Assembly (NCBI RefSeq): GCF_000189635.1
Contig: NW_002476364.1
Location: 496,001 to 560,000 of the forward strand
Length of the DNA: 64,000 bases
Reading direction: 5' to 3'
DNA from: Tetrahymena thermophila SB210
Taxonomy: Eukaryota > Ciliophora > Oligohymenophorea > Hymenostomatida > Tetrahymenidae
A program made the translations under genes and the position numbers. Of the stretch, positions 13,188-46,338 are shown piece after piece; the stretch's first letter is position 1, and each line of letters starts with the position of its first letter. The notes beneath the pieces are model-generated. The model ran no database searches, was not told the origin of the DNA, and saw nothing but the letters and a program-made list of their open reading frames with translations.

Positions 13188-14417
13188 ATGACAATCTTAT
13201 AAATCATTTGCTTATTTGCTTTGATTATTTTAAAAGCCTCAGCTGAAGAAGCATCAGGTGATGTTATATTTTTAAAGAACTCCAAATCAGCAAAATGTTT
13301 AGATGGTTCGCCTTTTGCATACGTCTATTATAAAGGCTTTGGTGACGGACAAGATAAATTTATGATTTATATGTAAGGTGGAGGTGCTTGTGATGGAGAT
13401 ACTACAGAAGAGCTATTAGAATCGTGCTATTAGAGATCAAAAACAATTTTGGGATCAAGCAAAGAGTGGCCTGAAACTCTCACTAACACAGGCAACTTAA
13501 GCGATGACGAAACTAATAATCCTGCATTCTACAACTGGAATAAATTATACATTCCTTATTGTGATGGGCAACTTTACTAGGGAAGAGCTACTATTTCTTA
13601 CAAAAATACTACTTTGTATTTTAGAGGATATGACAATGTAGTGGAAGTCTTTAATATACTAATAAAAAAATATGACATTCAATCGTCCAAGATAGTTGTA
13701 TTATCAGGTGGATCTGCTGGAGGTTTAGGTGCCTTCTATTGGAACTAGTACTTAAGAAAAATAATAAACAAAAACACTTTAGTTATTGCAGCTCCTGATT
13801 CTGGTTTTTTTATAGATATCATAAAATAAGATAGAAGTTAAGCTTATAAAAAAATTGATTTAATTACTGGTGGGAATAGGAACCTAATCTAACCTGAAGG
13901 ATGTCCTTATCTTTACTAAAATGATTAAATTTACAAATGTACATATGCTTAGTATATAATAGATTTAATGCCTGTCCCAGTTTTTATTATCAATTCCTTA
14001 TACGATACATATATCTTAAAAAACACTCTCCATGTAAATTGTGTTACACCAACTTTAGGGCTTTAAAATTGTAGTTAATAAGATATCGAAAAAGTTGAAG
14101 ATTTGAGACATTAAATGCTATATCAGCTTTAATAAATTTAATCAAGAAAACAAAACTGGGGTGCTTGGGCTATTTCTTGCCTCTATCATGTGTTTTCAGA
14201 ATCTAAATAGACCTTTAATGGGCCAGATTATCAAGTTCCAATGAATTCAGGTCTAACTATTTCTTATGCACTTAAGGAATTCATTTAAATGTAATAAGAT
14301 GAAATTTTATATGATAAAAGTTATTTTATTCTTGATCCTGAAGTTTATCCAAACAATTATAATTGCAATGGAATAAACAACTTAAATTTAAAATTCTTAT
14401 AAAATTAAAAAATTTGA
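13188..14417 (+). CDS. Pectin acetylesterase/Notum-like secreted hydrolase, copy 1
   Basis: An intronless 409-residue protein with an N-terminal signal peptide (IICLFALIILKASAEEA). It belongs to the pectin acetylesterase/Notum family of alpha/beta-hydrolases, which remove acyl groups from polysaccharides or lipid-modified proteins. The nucleophile is Ser176 in SGGSAGGLGAFYW, the likely acid is Asp273 in INSLYDTY, and the His is His334 in SCLYHVFSES. Spacing is close to that of plant pectin acetylesterases. The oxyanion-side motif YMQGGGACDG is present, as are the paired Cys typical of the family (ESCYQRS, YCDG, EGCPY, NCVTP, NCSQQD). TAA and TAG occur many times as glutamine. It would act in the secretory pathway or outside the cell. 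The natural substrate is unknown. Confidence 0.9.
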
Positions 14418-35184: not shown

Positions 35185-36153
35185 TCACATGCTTTTTTTG
35201 TGTCCTTCATTAACATTTTGATAAAATACTCTTGACTATTCTGCAAAAATTGGAAGGAAGAGCTTTTAAGGTATAAAATTATATACAAAAAAGCTTTAGA
35301 GGGAATGAGAGATATGACCGTTTGAGTATGAAGCAACTCCAAGCCATTTTAAAGCCCCTTCTGCTGCTTAGATAGGATTGATAGCTCCGATTTTAGATAA
35401 TTTATTATTTTGTTTACTTCCTTTGTTAATCAAAGGAGTGTCGACAACTAAACTTCTTAAGGAAAGAACATCTATTTGCTTTTTAGAGTATTCCTAACTT
35501 AATGAACGACTCAAGAAATCATCGAATGCCTTAGTTGCACTATAAAATGAACCAAAACCCTAAGGAAGAGTTCCACAAAAAGAGCTTAAGTTAATTATTC
35601 CTAAGCGATTTTTTTAAGTATTTTTATTATAATTTCTAACAACTATCTATGTAAGGTAGATTATTGATCTAATATTCAAGTTGATCAAGGACTCATTATA
35701 CTCATCAGCCATTTCTTCAAAATTTCCTCCTTCACCTGTACCAACATTGTTTATTAATAAAGATATTTGGTATTGTTTTAGTTATTGTTCTACCATTTTG
35801 TAGTCAGGTTTTTCGAAATCCATAATAATATTTCTAACTCTAATGTTTGGGTTGATTTTAGTAAGCTCGCTCTCTACATTCTATAGCTTAGTGGGATTTC
35901 TAGATATTTATAAAATGTTAAATCCTTCTTTTGCCAAAACTTAAGCATATCCCTTTCCTATACCATCAGTGCTGCCTGTGATTACAGCATAGTTTCCTTT
36001 TACAGTATCATCATTCTTATATTTTTAAAGGACTGTTGAAAGGTTTCTAAAATGAACATAAATTATCCTAAAAAACTAAAATAGTATCTAAAGAACCCAA
36101 ATTGCTCCTAATATACTTAATATTAAATAGCCAGTTTTCAAAATGTTGTTCAT
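35185..36153 (-). CDS. Short-chain dehydrogenase, 17-beta-HSD12/3-ketoacyl-CoA reductase type
   Basis: An intronless 322-residue protein, near the 312 residues of human HSD17B12. An N-terminal membrane helix (TGYLILSILGAIWVLQILF) precedes a classical SDR core. The NADP-binding motif is TGSTDGIGKGYA, NNVGTGEGG is the NNAG-type motif, and the catalytic Ser (NLSSFCGTLPQ) and Tyr-Lys (FYSATKAFDDFLSRSL) follow in the expected order. By family it would reduce 3-ketoacyl-CoA in ER very-long-chain fatty acid elongation, or oxidise or reduce steroids; the first fits a unicellular organism better. The C-terminus ends in a short hydrophobic patch. Confidence 0.88.
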
Positions 36154-36776: not shown

Positions 36777-37740
36777 TTTATTAAATATAAAAAATATTTT
36801 ATTGAACAAAAAAAATACTTACTATTATATTTGTTAATAATAAATATTCAAGAAATTAATTTTATTCAAAATATTTAGAATTAATTAAAGTAAACTAAAA
36901 TATCATAACATAAAATTTAAAAAAATAAGACATAAAAATTATCGATTAATAATATAATATTAAATAGAGCAAGAAATAATTAAATTTATTTTATTTTATT
37001 CAATACTTGTATTTTAGAATTTATTAAATATAAAAAATATTTTATTGAACAAAAAAAATAATTACTTTCTTATTTGTTAATAATAAATATTTAAAGAAAT
37101 TAAATTTATTCAAAATATTTAGAATTAATTAATGCTAAGTAATCTAAAATATCATAACATAAAATTAAAAAAAATAAGACATAAAAATTATCGATTAATA
37201 ATATAATATTAAATAGAGCAAGAAATAATTGAATTTATTTTATTTTATTCAATACTTGTATTTTAGAATTTATTAAATATAAAAAATATTTTATTGAACA
37301 AAAAAAATAATTATTATTTTATTTGTTAATAATAAATATTCAAAGAAATTAATTTTATTCAAAATATTTAGAATTAATTTATGCTAAGTAAACTAAAATA
37401 TCATAACATAAAATTAAAAAAAATAAGACATAAAAATTATCGATTAATAATATAATATTAAATAGAACAAGAAATAATTAAATTTATTTTATTTTATTCA
37501 ATACTTGTATATTAGAATTTATTAAATTTAAAAAATATTTTATTGAACAAAAAAAAATAACTTTTTTATTTGTTAATAATAAATATTCAAGTAATTAAAT
37601 TTATTAAGAATATTTAGAATTAATTAATGTAAAGTAAACTAAGATATCGTAACATAAAATTAAAAAAAATAAGACATAAAAATTATTGATTAATAATATA
37701 CAATTAAATAGAGCAAGAAATAATTAAATTTATTTTATGC
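36777..37740. repeat. Four-copy AT-rich tandem array, unit 243-249 bp
   Basis: Units begin with TTAAATATAAAAAATATTTT at about 36781, 37024, 37273 and 37522. Each carries AAGACATAAAAATTATCGAT or a one-base variant and ends near CAATACTTGTA. Unit 1 is 243 bp because it lacks about six bases (ATGCTAAGTA-type insert); units 2 and 3 are 249 bp. The fourth unit is cut at about 37740. The array lies between the dehydrogenase promoter and the 3' end of the Dicer-like gene. Confidence 0.9.
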
Positions 37741-37896: not shown

Positions 37897-40800
37897 TCAT
37901 AAAGACTATTAATTTATTGGGTTGTTAATGATTTATTCTTTGATAGCCAAATATGCCTCTTCGATTCTTTGGCATTCAAAAACCTTATCAATAAGTAATT
38001 TTTCATTTTTAATATCATAAATCTAGAAGTTATATTTATTCTAATTAATTGGTAAGAACTACTCTGGATGTGGTAATTTAATAATTTGAATATCTTCCCA
38101 ATCATATCCCTTTTATTTTAAAACTTTAATTAAAGAATATTTAGGATACTAATCTGCTATTTGGCAAATATCTTTTATAATTAATTATATGTGTTAATTT
38201 TAATTAAAGAAATCTGATGTTTTTTCAAAATCTTATTGTAAGTCTATATATATAGCTCCTACCAAAGAGTCAAAGAGTTAAGATAAAATACTTATATCCT
38301 TATTATAGTTAGTTGCAATATTTCTGAAACTCTAAATGTTTTACTATCTCAAAAAATTAGCTGCATGATTTATTTTTTAAAATATTTATTAATATTGAAT
38401 CCCATAAATGAAGTATTAATCTAATTTAAATTTTGCAGACAAGAAAGACTTTGTTTATTCACAACATATTATTTCCATGAAAATATCTAATTCATCTAAA
38501 TTTATTTATTTATATAAAAAATCAGAATCACTCATTGGATATAAAAACAATTTTCTGAATTCATCTCAAAATAATAAATTTTTAAAATAGAAATCTAATC
38601 AATCAAAGAAATGAAATAGATAAATAAATACTTGGATTGGATTGACTGTATCTCGTGTAAAGTCGCTTTAAGACTATTTGAGAGAATATTATAGATCCTA
38701 AAAATGAAAGTACATCATTTGAAACATCATTTAGCTGTATAAAAGATTATCTTTTTTCTGTTTTTTATATTTCGGTGATGAAGTCATTCAAAGATTTTTC
38801 TAGAGTTCCAAAGATCTTATTAAGATCTGAACAAACCATATCTTATTTATATGAAGAATGAGTAAATACCTATTAGAGAAGACCTATGTTATTAAATTTG
38901 TAATTGATAGAATTCTAGCTAAATTAATTTAATAAATTTTATTTATCAGGTTTATACTAAATCTATTCTGGTTAGATATTTACGAATTTGGTTAAAACAC
39001 TATACTTTTCAATCAAGTTAAATGATTTAAGAAGAGGTTAAAATAATGAGCTATATTTTTCAAAGTTTTTGAAAATGTTTTGGTTTTGATTTATGGTAAT
39101 TCCTATTATATAATAAATTATTTCTGTAAATTATTTGTTTCTAATTTCTGCCATGTTATAATTTAATGGATTTTATTAATGATTTTTGATAAGAATTTTT
39201 TCTTGTAATGTTAACTGATCAGCAACAAACGTATGTAATTTCTATGAAATTATACTCAAGCAAGGAGCCAAAGTTACATAGTCTTTGATCAGCAAGTACT
39301 TAAAAAACTTAGACTCTACTGCTTTAGACATAACAAAGCAATCATTAAATCTCATATCTAGTTCACTTATTAAAATATCATAGTGTGTTTTAAAGTTTTC
39401 ATTGAAAACATTAATGCTGGTTATAAATCTGAAATATTACTTTCCTAAAAACACAAGGTTTTTCTCTAATTATTTTTTCTAAAAAATTTAGATTAAATCT
39501 CTTTCTGTTAAGGTTAACAGATTCTCAAATTAAAGAGGATAAATTTCTTTCTAATCTTGTTTAATATTTGATTTAGAGAGCGAACCAGTAAGCTTAAAAT
39601 TTGGCTTGATAAAAACATTTAATTGTTCTATTTGCATATTCTAAAAATCAATTATTTCTTAGTTAAGTTTTTTTGATATTTTTTCAGAAATAATTTTAAG
39701 TTTAAGAAAATCTCTAATTTAATCAATGTGGTTATTTATTTATTTAATTTCTTTGATCTAATTTTAATTCAGATCACTCATTATGTAAAGAAAAACCACA
39801 TTTTCATTAATTAGCACACTTTCTTCTGTGTTTTTATAATCTAAGATTTATGTTTTTTTATAAATTAAACATTTGCTAGTGTAAATTTTTTTAGGCTCAA
39901 GATTCATTTTATCAAGATTTAATAACTTTAAATGAGCTTATTGGTTAATTTTTCTAATTTCGTTTAATTCTTCATTGCTTAAATTCTTTTAAAAAAATAT
40001 TTAGTAAAAATATTCAATTAATTTTAATTAATTTTACAATTTAGTTATGGAAGATAAATTTAATATCTTAATGGATAAAGCCTTCTAAACACTGCTTGTC
40101 ATAAATAAGTTTAACTTAAAGTAATTCACCCTTGTATTATATATCATAGAGATAAAAGGGATGAAATTCTCTTTATTAGATTTATTCTTTTTAAACAAAA
40201 ACTTCATCTACAATTTAACGATAAAGTTTTTTGTAGACAACAATTTATCTCTTTTTTCCATTTAAATATCCTACAAATACTTCCTGCATGTTCTTTTATA
40301 TAATAGCAAAATATCTATCAGAGTATTCAACATAGTAATCATCTTCACCTCTTCCAAAATAGAAATTTTTGTAAGATTTATGTCTCGGTCTTAGCTCATT
40401 TGAGATATATTCTTTTTTAATAAAATAAAAATCGTTTGATAATAAAACTTAACAATAAATTACTGTTTTTTAATAGGCTCTTGACTGCCTGCATAAAAGC
40501 ACATCTTTAAGCATCTTCTTTTTTAAATTTTAGCTTCTGGAGATTCATAAAAATATTTGCTTAGAGTTGAAAAGGTAAAATGATAAGAGACAAATACTAA
40601 CCTCTTTCATTACTGCATTCATTGATTCATTCATACATACATTATAATAATAATTGTTTAAATGAATTTAAATGTTTAAAAAAATATTTACATTAAACAG
40701 TCGAAAACTATTGGGAATCTATTGTCCAACTAACTATTGTAGCAAAACGATTGACAAAATTAGTTGACAATTTCTTTAACCCAAAATGTATTCACATTTG

Positions 40801-41067
40801 CGTTAGTTTCTGGAATAATGAAATTTTCATAATTTTCCATCGACGTATCATCCTCATCGTTAACTTAATCTAAATTTATAACAAAATTTAATATTTTTAA
40901 TTAAATAATAATTTTTCAATAAAAATTAATTACGCTTTTCTTTTTCTTAACTAAATTACTTTTAGGTCAATAAGGATAAGCTATAGTATTCTTATTTTAT
41001 TTAATCACTCACTATTTAATGGTTTTATAATTTTATCTTATTCTAATTGATGTTTTTATAAAATAAT

Positions 41068-41135
<68 letters not shown>

Positions 41136-44100
41136 AATGAATATTAAAAGTAAATATTACATTATTGTAAACAGCAACTAAGGCATAAAATTTGCTATTT
41201 TCTGCTCTAGCTCTACCTTTCATTTGTATATATTATCTTTGACTAATTATTTTGCTAAAAGCTATGACGATATTACATGAAGGAATATCGAAACCTTCTT
41301 CAACAACACTAGTGCTTACTAAAATTTTGAATTATTTGTTTCTGAATCTCTCAACAATCTTTTATTGTTCAGAGTATTTTTATTTTAGCGCATAAAATTT
41401 GATACTAAATTATTTTTCTTGTTGTATAATGTTCTAAGCTTATTATACACTTTACGATTTTAAGTTTTAGATTTCATACGGATTTATGCTATTTATTATT
41501 TTTAAATTATTATCATCTTCTTCATCTTTTTTATTTTGGCTTGCTGTTTATGATAAAATAAGTAATATATCAAATATACATACAAAGAAAATAAATATTT
41601 ATTTACTTTATCCCATTATATATTCGCAACATTTTTAGTCTGAATTACTATTTTAGAATACACTTTAAATGAACTTCGTGACATATTTGACAACAACTTT
41701 GCTATTACAAAATATCAAAGAAATACCTTCACTTTTTGAAAGAATTGATAGCAAAACTTATGATTTATTGCTAAGATCATTATTAATATTGTTGTATTTT
41801 GCTCTAAATATTTCATAAAATTATTGTAAGATATCCTCCAGCTATTGTTTCATACAGAGAGTTTTTGGTGCAGTTATGTTAACACCTTTGAGTTCTTACA
41901 AGATATCGAAGATAAAAAATTGCACAACATAAACACCTAATAAAATAATAATAAATATTAAAAAATAAAACATTTGAATATAAAATTAATTACCTATTTG
42001 ATAAATTAAAATAATGATATATTCTTCTAAGAGATTAATTATTTTCCTAAGTATTTGAGTAAAGGCTTTAGAAGCAAGATTATCTAATCTGCTAAGCGCT
42101 TATAACTATTTATATAGCTCCTTTAATTCAGGATATTACTCTTATAGCTCATATAAAACTTTATCAGCCTGATCAAAGCCTTTAATGTTGTTAGATTCAA
42201 TGTATTGATAATCATTCTCATTCATATTAACTTCATAAAACTTCTCAGTTTATTTAATGTTTCTTAACTGTGCATAGACTTTCTGTAAATCATAATTAAT
42301 AAATTAGCAATCTAAATTATGAGCTAATTTTAGCATTTCTCTTCTCACATTAAAATTTCCTTTATTTCCTTGTGTAATAGGAGTAGCAGACAATCCAATA
42401 ATATTTGGTGTATTTTTTAAGACAATATCATTTTTCTTTACTCTATCATTATGATTATAAAATAAATAAAATTTTGTATGCTGATGTATAAAATAAATAT
42501 TACTAAAAGTAAAATTCTTTCATAATTTAAGAAAAAGCATGTTCTTTACTAGTATTGTGGCATTCGTCAAATATGATCAATTTAAACTAAAAAATTATTT
42601 ATTTAAAATATAGCAAAATATTTAATAATAATTTTACTTAAGTGAGCTGGAAATGACCTCTTCTCAATCCATTCAAAAAAATTTAAGAAGAAAAAAAAAT
42701 AATCTGTGATTGTTCAACATTTTTTTACCAAAACGATCTATTCCAGAAGTCTAAATTCATTTTACCATGGAAAAAAGAGATGTTAATATTTTAATTTATC
42801 TCTTCAGATAAATTTTGTTTGACTAAATATTCTTCTATTGATCTTTGATACGTCAAGAAATTATTATATTGTTATTCCACTAAGTTCACTTGATTTGCTA
42901 AAAATGCAACCTAATTAAAATTTTAAATTAATAAGAATAAGTAAAAGTTAAGTGAATTAAAAATATTATGATTGTAAAAGTATTTTTTTCTTATTTTTAG
43001 TGTTGAATTTTAATTTTTTTCTGAACATAAATTTATTTTATTTTAAAAATTTAATCTGAAAACAAATTTAATTTAATTTTTTCTTCATAATTCTTTCAAA
43101 AAATATCTAAAATTTATATTTTAAAAACTAAATCTGAATAGAAATTCTATTAATTTTGTCTTCATATTAATATGAAAAAATATCTATTTATCAAAAAAAG
43201 AGAAGATAGAAAAAAACCAAGAAACACAAAATTGTTTTATATTTTAAAAAAAATCAAATATTAAACAAATTTGGATTAGGTTTGTTTATTCAAGATTTCT
43301 TTAATTCTTTAATTTTTCATAGAATTATCTATAAATCCCTCCCTCCTCTTTACATTTTATATATTTATACTTTTTTGTATTTTTATGATTTATTTTGTCT
43401 AAAATAAAAATAAATAAATACCTTAGACCCTTTGAACTTTGAAAGAGTGTATTAAGCTATCATTTAGCTTACTAATGTTTTACCTGTTCCTGTTTCTAAA
43501 AATATAATGTAATTTCCATAATTTTAAATAAGATTTTTAAATATTTCCTCTTAGTAATCTCTAGGCTCAATTTAGACATATTATTATTTCAGTTACTTTT
43601 GTTTTTTCAGAATATTGCAAAAATCTTTTATGTTTTTGCTCTTTTAATAAAGAGCACTATGCTTTTTATTTTCTAAAAATTCAAATTCATCTAAAAATGA
43701 CGAATTGCTATCAATTTCTACATTGCTTATACTACTTATAGGCTCTCCTAACAATTCTTAATGTTGTTTTAATATCTATATTTAATAAAGAAATTAAATT
43801 ATTAAATAAATAAAAAATAAATAAATATAAAAATGAGTTTTTTGCTTACATTTTAGTCTTGAGAAGTTTTTTTTTCTTCGTTATCACCCTCGTCTTCTGA
43901 TGAAAATTGAAGTTATCTATTTTCATCTTCTTAATTTTAAATAATCTAGTTTAAATTATTTTATTAATATTATTTGAGGAATTGCCATCAAGTAAATTAA
44001 ATTTGTTTACGTTTTAACTATCTAAATCTAAACAGTCAATTTAGTTTGAGATATTTTGAATATTCTTCTAATCTTCTAAAAGTTTCTATCCAAACTATTT

Positions 44101-46338
44101 TTGGGTAGAGCTAATTGTAAAGTTATCATTTGAGCTTTATTATTATGAAATGTTTTCTTAAGATATTTATAGTTAAATTTAATCACTACCATTTAAATTA
44201 TTGTTATTATTGTATTGATAGTTGCTTTATTAAATTGGATTATTATTTTGTTATTGGCTTAGTTATTGAGTAATTAATTTTTTTTAGCAATAATTTATCT
44301 GATTTTCTTAAAGGTTTAATAATTTATTATCATAATCAATTTTATTTTCAGATTATTTTTTTAGACATTAATTTAATGATATCATTTATTCATTCTGCTA
44401 TTTAATTTGATTAGATTAATAATGAGTTTTTGTTTCTTGTTAATTAACATTTTCAATAATAGTTTATTAATTTCTTTAAGATTAAACTGAGCTTTCATCT
44501 ATGCAATTTTGATTATTTTAAAAAAGTTTTTGGTTATCTTTTTAAGACGATATTGAACTATCACTGATATTTTAAGCAATATCTTATTTATCTAGATTTT
44601 TTTACTCTAAATTTTAACACTATTAATTCTAAAGGATATTCAATCCATTAGAAGAATCTATTTTTGAAGATTAATCAATTATAACAATGCTTTCTAAATC
44701 CTAATCACTTTGGCTAGGTAAAAAATGAGGGAAAGGTAATATTTGCTCAAGATTGCAATTTTGTTTATTTTAAAAATGTTATTGATTACTTATTTAAAAC
44801 TTTTTTGAGCAATCTTCATTATTCTAATCAATATCCTATTTATCTAGATTTTTTAACTCTAAATTTTAATATTATTAATTCTAAAGTATTTTCAATCCAT
44901 TAGAGGAATTTATTGTAGATTTTTATGACTAAAAACTACTTTATTAATCCTGCTAATTACTTTACATAGATAATAAAAGAGGTAATATAGGCTATTAGAT
45001 ACCGTTTTGGTTATTTTTTGTAATTTTTTGATTTTCTAATTAAGGTAACATTCTATTTTCTTAAGTATTGCTAGCAACATCATCTTTTATTATCATTTTT
45101 TACTCTTAATTTTAATATAATTAATTCTAAGAAATATTTTATTGAGTTATTGGAAATTATTAGTTTTCAATTGATTATTTATTTGATGGTTAAGATAAAA
45201 TTAAGCTTTCTTCTTCAATATTATCTTTTACTTAATTTTTTTACTCTAAATTTTAATATTATTAATTCTAAATAATATTTTATTGAGTTATTGGAAATTA
45301 TTACTACGAAATTATATTTTACTAATTTTATAACTCAGTATTTAATGTTTCCAATTATTTAAAGTTTTTATTGTTTTCAATTGGTTATTTATTTGATGGT
45401 TAAGATAAAATTAAGCTTTCTTCTTTCTAAGAAATATTCTATTGAGTTATTGGAAATTATTACTATGAAATAATATTTTACTAATTTTATAACTCAGTAT
45501 TTAATGTTTCCTATTATTTAAAGTTTTTGTTGTTTTCAATTGATTATTTATTTGATGGTTAAGATAAAATTAAGCTTTCTTCTTCAATATTACTTTTTAC
45601 TTAATTTTTTTACTCTAAGTTTTAATTTTATTAATTCTAAATAATATTTTATTGAGTTATTGGAAATTATTACTACGAAATAATATTTTACTAATTTTAT
45701 AACTCAGTATTTAATGTTTCCTATTAGTTAAAGCTTTTATTGTTTTCAATTGGTTATTTATTTGATGGTTAAGATAAAATTAAGCTTTCTTCTTCAATAT
45801 TATCTTTTACTTAATTTTTTTACTCTAAATTTTAATATTATTAATTCTAAATAATATTTTATCCATTAAGGGATGTTAATTTTGATTTTTCCTACAAAAA
45901 ATCTTATTGATTTTTTTAATTAGATAAAGAAGGCGCCTCAAGTTGATCATTCAATAAATCTGAATTTTAGCTATTTTTGAGCACTTTTTTATTTTAATTT
46001 TGAGATGAAACCAAACTTTCTTATTTATCTTCAATAGCTTCACCTTTTTATATTTATTTAGTTTCAACATCTTTCTGTCCAGGATTCAAATTTTTATTAA
46101 ATCCTTCAGGATTTTGAGCAATTTCTATATTTTTGAGCAATAAGCTATTTTGATTACCAATTTTATTATGAATTGATTATAAAATAGCCAAATCTGATGA
46201 ATTAAAGGATTATTAAATTTAATCAATGCTGCTATAATCTAAAATTGTTTCATTCTTTTTCAAGAAGCTTTCTACTCTATCTTATTCTTCAAAATTGGAT
46301 TCAGAGCTACTTTCGTCTTTAAACTGACTGAAATCCAT
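37897..46338 (-). CDS. Dicer-like protein with degenerate RNase III sites
   Basis: About 2,200 residues in roughly fifteen exons. Exon 1 (44011-46338, 776 codons) encodes a Gln/Asn-rich extension with tandem repeats. A DExH helicase follows: ETGTGKT (near 43490), FDECHNTS (42555-42575), IIGLSATP (near 42395), SLIFCNSKVVV, STSVVEEGFDIPS and QMKGRARAE (near 41215). A DUF283-like dimerisation domain (VNQFCQSFC ... DAQRCAFMQAVKSLL) comes next, then a platform-like region without a clear PAZ. Last are two RNase III-like domains (about 39100-39480 and 38250-38840) and a possible weak dsRBD. Both RNase III domains lack the expected Glu/Asp metal ligands (see findings). Dicers cut dsRNA into small RNAs. 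Tetrahymena has three Dicer-family genes, DCL1, DCR1 and DCR2; with its helicase this resembles the DCR type, but I cannot assign which. Confidence 0.85.
41068..41135. repeat. (TAAG)n microsatellite in Dicer-like intron
   Basis: About seventeen uninterrupted 4-bp units, inside the intron between the last helicase exon (ending near 41174) and the next exon (near 40985). Confidence 0.9.
45060..45880 (-). repeat. Coding tandem repeats, Gln-rich part of the Dicer-like gene
   Basis: A unit of about 65-75 codons occurs roughly four times in one open frame. Each unit carries NLEQKNQVK, NIEEESLILSQPSNKQ, IENNK, ETLNTELQNQQNIIS and FPITQQNI or clear variants. The units keep the same frame, and the differences are mostly substitutions plus one or two in-frame deletions. 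Less similar units extend down to about 44600 (GLNILQNQQCQNLEQKN, GLKILQNQQYQNLELKN). Confidence 0.85.

Follow-up and report, generated by a model that had tools for sequence, protein, structure and literature searches.

The window analysed here, a 64,000-nucleotide stretch of the somatic genome of Tetrahymena thermophila (contig C173:496001–560000), carries on its reverse strand a Dicer-like gene in which all eight metal-ligand positions of the two RNase III domains are altered and the helicase is kept. Judged from its sequence and that of its orthologs, the product is a maintained pseudonuclease and not a pseudogene, because both dead domains are 67–85% identical between species. It is probably a Dicer pseudonuclease, paralogous to Dcr2, that works in RNA silencing as a non-cutting, ATP-dependent helper or sensor of double-stranded RNA (dsRNA) for a catalytic Dicer. 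The gene and the parts on which this reading depends are as follows:

37897..46338, reverse strand: whole gene, 14 exons, 2352 amino acids in the ciliate code, ATG at 46338 and TGA at 37897
46338–44011, 43945–43850, 43775–43422, 42910–42638, 42586–42504, 42442–41994, 41936–41607, reverse strand: exons 1–7
41543–41161, 41042–40934, 40869–40692, 40612–40464, 40411–40038, 39985–38632, 38495–37897, reverse strand: exons 8–14
41170..43577 (introns included), reverse strand: DExH helicase, residues 875–1429, Pfam ResIII 80.8 bits and Helicase_C 56.3 bits
43496–43476, 42568–42557, 42393–42379, 41226–41206, reverse strand: helicase motifs ETGTGKT, DECH, LSATP and QMKGRAR, respectively
40465..40804 (one intron included), reverse strand: candidate DUF283 / Dicer dimerisation domain, residues 1491–1577, Pfam PF03368 23.4 bits against a cut-off of 23.7
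39071..39523, reverse strand: degenerate RNase IIIa domain, residues 1857–2007
39454–39452, 39442–39440, 39124–39122, 39115–39113, reverse strand: RNase IIIa ligand codons V1880, K1884, E1990 and Y1993
38242..38902, reverse strand: degenerate RNase IIIb domain, residues 2064–2238, Pfam PF00636 29.5 bits against a cut-off of 27
38707–38705, 38695–38693, 38280–38278, 38271–38269, reverse strand: RNase IIIb ligand codons S2129, S2133, Q2226 and D2229

The gene reads 253 TAA or TAG codons as Gln. When spliced with its last intron at 38631–38496, which interrupts the RNase IIIb domain, it encodes a protein identical across 2352/2352 residues to T. thermophila SB210 protein P0001, which had been matched at 98% identity by a query with 1569 amino acids of a draft gene model. 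An alternative, closer acceptor for this intron, adding 23 amino acids, was rejected; the database proteins of T. thermophila and of the two species that follow all use the later one. Orthologs of P0001 were identified in T. utriculariae (P0002, 79%) and T. malaccensis (P0003, 75%), and when the RNase III part of the utriculariae protein served as a protein query, the three Tetrahymena orthologs were the only matches at E up to 0.1. The NCBI product name of P0001, 'type III restriction enzyme, res subunit', suits the helicase part alone (Pfam ResIII) and conceals the Dicer-like gene.

Metal-ligand positions of the RNase III domains

Domain a of the spliced protein carries the motifs LVFLGK (V1880, K1884) and KQFTEIIYYIIG (E1990, Y1993) and domain b LSFLGS (S2129, S2133) and LSQLFDSLVGAIY (Q2226, D2229), which confirms the motifs and the eight ligand readings of the original prediction at the place it gave. 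The E-D / D-E metal ligands that mark the Dicer class are thus found in neither RNase III domain, and the idea of a Dicer-derived protein with both active sites degenerate was borne out. In the order thermophila, utriculariae and malaccensis, the residues are V/V/V, K/K/K, E/E/D and Y/Y/Y in domain a and S/S/S, S/S/S, Q/Q/Q and D/D/D in domain b, so that 8/8 positions differ from E-D / D-E and 6/8 are non-acidic in all three species. The claim that all eight were changed is therefore literally right; it overstates the loss, since 2/8 of the changes are acid-to-acid and a carboxylate is kept at E1990 and D2229, with T. malaccensis retaining Asp at the E1990 position. The Q2226 codon (38278–38280) is TAA, a stop in the standard code, and a standard-code reading would overlook this Gln.

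For comparison, 126 of 129 database proteins were aligned, P0006, P0007 and P0010 being left out as non-Dicer helicases. Among the 123 rows other than Dcr1, which comprise the best 120 of 850 matches to a Dcr2 query together with P0005, P0008 and P0009 and are weighted towards ordinary Dicers, acids stand at six of the positions in 123/123 and at two in 122/123, P0008 being gapped at the last two; no ligand is replaced in any of them. The glycines in FLGK/FLGS and IIG/LVGA help to keep the fold and are retained in all three Tetrahymena species, and the THSSY before domain b is kept, as had been predicted.

The proposed alignment check against other Dicers gave a different outcome for each domain. 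The register of domain b is firm, with 44.0 bits to a hidden Markov model (HMM) of the relatives and 98.3% by hhalign. Alignments by phmmer to mouse and human Dicer (3c4b, 2eb1) set the two Ser, Gln and Asp opposite E, D, D and E, and the phmmer match to human Dicer 5zak begins with L2128 at 1704, which places S2129 and S2133 at 1705 and 1709 (there is no gap there in the printed 3c4b and 2eb1 alignments). Domain a is matched weakly: against the HMM of relatives the three orthologs score 4.8, 9.6 and 12.7 bits, and hhalign gives 47%. MAFFT shifts its first ligand to E1876, brought opposite the first Glu by a four-residue gap, and P0003 is likewise gapped in its HMM alignment. V1880 is the first ligand in the HMM alignments of P0001 and P0002, in hhalign and at the ends of the structural superpositions.

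These superpositions were made with an AlphaFold2 (AF2) model of the RNase III part, which fits the tandem cores of Dicers as a single unit and depends on the Dicer rows of the alignment behind it; a tandem RNase III fold is accordingly predicted with partial confidence. Two of them open by pairing E1876 (model residue 29) with residue 1209 of Drosophila Dicer-2 7w0c and residue 1312 of human 9v42. The match that begins with query 2 at 1311 puts the human domain-a Glu at 1316 and Asp at 1320, provided that its first ten residues contain no gap. Reading from the alignment end points and assuming no gap within the helix, V1880 and K1884 would fall on human 1316 and 1320. The candidate E1876, given by MAFFT and the P0003 HMM alignment, was set aside on the registers of the P0001 and P0002 HMM alignments, hhalign and the two superposition starts.

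Conservation of the helicase and nuclease domains

Loss was concentrated in the nuclease part when columns with 95% or higher conservation among the other Dicers (108 other rows for the helicase, 120 for domain a) were compared. The helicase retains 55/69 of these near-invariant columns against 56/69 in Dcr2, which bears out the earlier view that its motifs are intact. Domain a retains 7/19 against 15/19 in Dcr2, with one of the seven hinging on the gapped E1876, and domain b 11/26 against 21/26, giving 18/45 for both nuclease domains together against 36/45. The NCBIfam RNaseIII model scores Dcr2 at 100.8 bits and does not list P0001 at E up to 0.1.

Amino-acid identity relative to Dcr2 was used as a stand-in for the ratio of nonsynonymous to synonymous substitution rates (dN/dS). 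Pairwise identity among the three species is 80.3–83.9% for the helicase of the Dicer-like protein vs 82.9–83.6% in Dcr2, and 79.5–84.8% for domain a vs 73.1–78.5%, where the higher value is not to be over-read, as identity in Dcr2 domain a is reduced by a variable acidic insert. By this sequence measure the dead domains are clearly constrained, domain b less so than in the live enzyme.

Relatives in the genome and gene identity

When the genome (101 Mb, 445 contigs) was searched, PF00636 passed its cut-off at two other loci, C212 and C167, and did not list the Dicer-like gene itself. C212 is the locus matching P0012, NCBI's Dcr2p, which resembles the Dicer-like protein in its order of helicase, DUF283 (a candidate domain in P0001) and tandem RNase III and, unlike it, has 8/8 metal ligands intact. 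At C167 there are two long reading frames with RNase III matches and no helicase match, and E-D / D-E is kept in both domains (by eye). Searched with the whole protein, the genome yielded 15 matches: 13 are the gene's own exons and 2 lie in C212. No further paralogue was returned beyond C212, although only the best candidates were scored and a more diverged relative could be missed. The PF03368 profile likewise listed C212 alone. A helicase tree of 28 chosen rows places Dcr1 as sister to Dcr2 (100/99), though this join is flagged as one between long branches.

T. thermophila is credited with DCL1, DCR1 and DCR2 (PMC8138440; here and below, the statements cited are those in excerpts of the sources), whereas an older paper gives it a single Dicer (PMC2287173). 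Dcr2p is reported to produce 23–24 nt small interfering RNAs (siRNAs) and Dcl1p scan RNAs (scnRNAs) (PMC4331008). By elimination, the window gene is probably DCR1, because the named Dcr2p is the C212 locus and the C167 locus lacks a helicase match. The Dicer-like gene is of a known kind and has probably already been named. In passages and outlines of the open-licence literature, a scope outside which the founding papers on DCR1 fall, no statement on the degenerate sites of this protein was found. One of the founding groups is said to have remarked on divergent nuclease motifs in Dcr1.

Proposed function and alternative explanations

As a helper or sensor for a catalytic Dicer, the protein would have its two RNase III domains packed against one another in cis, in the manner of Dicer, and these, without the carboxylates that hold two catalytic metals, would form a non-cutting cradle for dsRNA. 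The intact RIG-I/Dicer-type helicase would bind dsRNA and hydrolyse ATP, and the protein may feed, hold or withhold dsRNA for the catalytic Dicer, the first candidate partner being Dcr2 with the RNA-dependent RNA polymerase Rdr1. The ligand changes strongly imply an absence of cleavage; dsRNA binding, ATPase activity and a partner we infer. By the RNase III mechanism, a single-acid metal site, joined in domain a by a Lys, should not bind two catalytic metals. The RNase III mutants E110K and E110Q were, by their PDB titles, crystallised with dsRNA, and a crippled RNase III site can therefore hold dsRNA. More tentatively, a complete Dicer may have become a dsRNA motor or sensor free of nuclease activity, comparable to DRH-1 or a RIG-I-like receptor, that governs how the live Dcr2 meets dsRNA.

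A number of points weigh against a non-cutting helper of this kind. Domain a is, at the level of sequence, barely recognisable, and domain b evolves faster than its live counterpart (66.9–74.3% identity vs 78.2–83.0% in Dcr2). AF2 supplied with the three orthologs alone gave no usable fold, with a predicted local distance difference test score (pLDDT) of 34.1 and a predicted template modelling score (pTM) of 0.25. The PDB title of the D44N mutant describes a complex with processing product, so a single ligand change need not abolish cutting, and the acids E1990 and D2229 could still allow very weak or one-metal cleavage. The Dcr2 partnership is itself a guess.

Among the alternatives, a decoy that acts as a dominant-negative brake, binding dsRNA or Dcr2 partners and so lowering siRNA production, is unlikely. 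The domain order shared with Dcr2, the sister position in the helicase tree (100/99) and the standing of Dcr2 as nearest relative in the genome would all suit it, although it is not obvious why a mere decoy would keep its helicase as well conserved as Dcr2 does. Slightly less probable again is that the dead domains pair in trans with live RNase III domains supplied by a second protein, giving half-active or specialised cutters, as has been proposed for trypanosome editosomes. There the noncatalytic RNase III domains of KREPB9 and KREPB10 retain the dimer glycine, mutation of which reduces editosome association (PMC5770545), and the FLGK/FLGS and IIG/LVGA glycines are retained in all three Tetrahymena species; such an arrangement is less natural with both RNase III domains in one chain. 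Trans pairing is less likely than cis pairing, because one chain contains both domains and their model, itself dependent on Dicer rows, fits the Dicer cores as a single unit.

A residual or altered nuclease, in which cleavage, slow or in a different order, would rest on the remaining acids together with other residues, is very improbable. Acids do persist in all three species at E1990 (Asp in malaccensis) and D2229, and the MAFFT alignments bring E1876 to the first Glu position in domain a; against this, the profile register leaves one acid per site, K1884 puts a positive charge at the metal site and E1876 is unsupported by most registers. That the gene is a decaying pseudogene or an assembly error is scarcely credible, even with a database product name other than Dicer: its 14 exons join into a single open frame whose product matches the database protein exactly, and the same losses recur, with high identity, in the two other species. 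A pseudogene or frameshift was set aside on these grounds.

Comparison with known systems

The KREPB4–KREPB10 proteins of trypanosome editosomes differ from the Dicer-like protein in serving mitochondrial RNA editing and are not known to have a Dicer helicase. They resemble it in their degenerate RNase III ligands and kept glycine (PMC5770545). In Caenorhabditis elegans the RIG-I-like helicase DRH-1 acts with the catalytic Dicer DCR-1 (PMC11095941), and a helper helicase such as this may, by analogy, be the closest functional picture, although DRH-1 is a RIG-I-like receptor whereas the Tetrahymena protein is Dicer-shaped over its full chain. One activity has also been lost in Drosophila Dicer-1 and mammalian Dicer (PMC10328071); there it is the helicase that lost function and the nuclease that was kept, apparently the opposite of the Tetrahymena case. 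Such a naturally dead Dicer, its helicase conserved, sets the motor apart from the nuclease and would make it possible to study the Dicer helicase on its own, in a model organism in which gene knockout is routine. Dicer counts made by name or domain match can overstate dicing capacity.

Other features of the gene and its surroundings

The remaining parts of the gene are as follows:

43874..46338, reverse strand: Gln/Asn-rich N-terminal region, residues 1–800, 21% Q and 15% N, with internal DNA repeats
37936..38145, reverse strand: C-terminal segment resembling a double-stranded RNA-binding domain (dsRBD), residues about 2271–2340, helix-three strands-helix order in the AF2 model, pLDDT 44–68

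Of the features typical of Dicers, the RIG-I/Dicer-type DExH helicase is present, as are two tandem RNase III domains (b clear, a weak), with the single Pfam Ribonuclease_3 match of P0001 located in domain b. The malaccensis ortholog carries a precomputed DUF283 / Dicer dimerisation domain. A Pfam scan from the helicase to the C-terminus gave no match to a dsRBD, to PAZ, which is also absent from the domain listings of the three Tetrahymena Dcr2 proteins, or to the C-terminal RIG-I regulatory domain, in place of which RNase III is present. Several superposition ranges reach the end of the model, where the dsRBD-like segment lies, and cover the C-terminal part of Dicers. A large share of the Gln/Asn-rich region is missing in the two predicted orthologs, whose predicted starts may be wrong.

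DNA repeats of 159 and 210 bp (94–95% matches) occur at 45266–45862 in the Gln/Asn-rich first exon, and a (TAAG)18 microsatellite at 41064–41135 within the intron 41160–41043. Between the 3' end of the Dicer-like gene and the next gene lies an AT-rich tandem repeat (36777–37738; 249 bp, 3.9 copies, 93% matches). A short-chain dehydrogenase gene follows downstream at 35185–36153 on the reverse strand (adh_short, 107.8 bits), and a pectinacetylesterase gene is found at 13188–14417 on the forward strand (321.5 bits).
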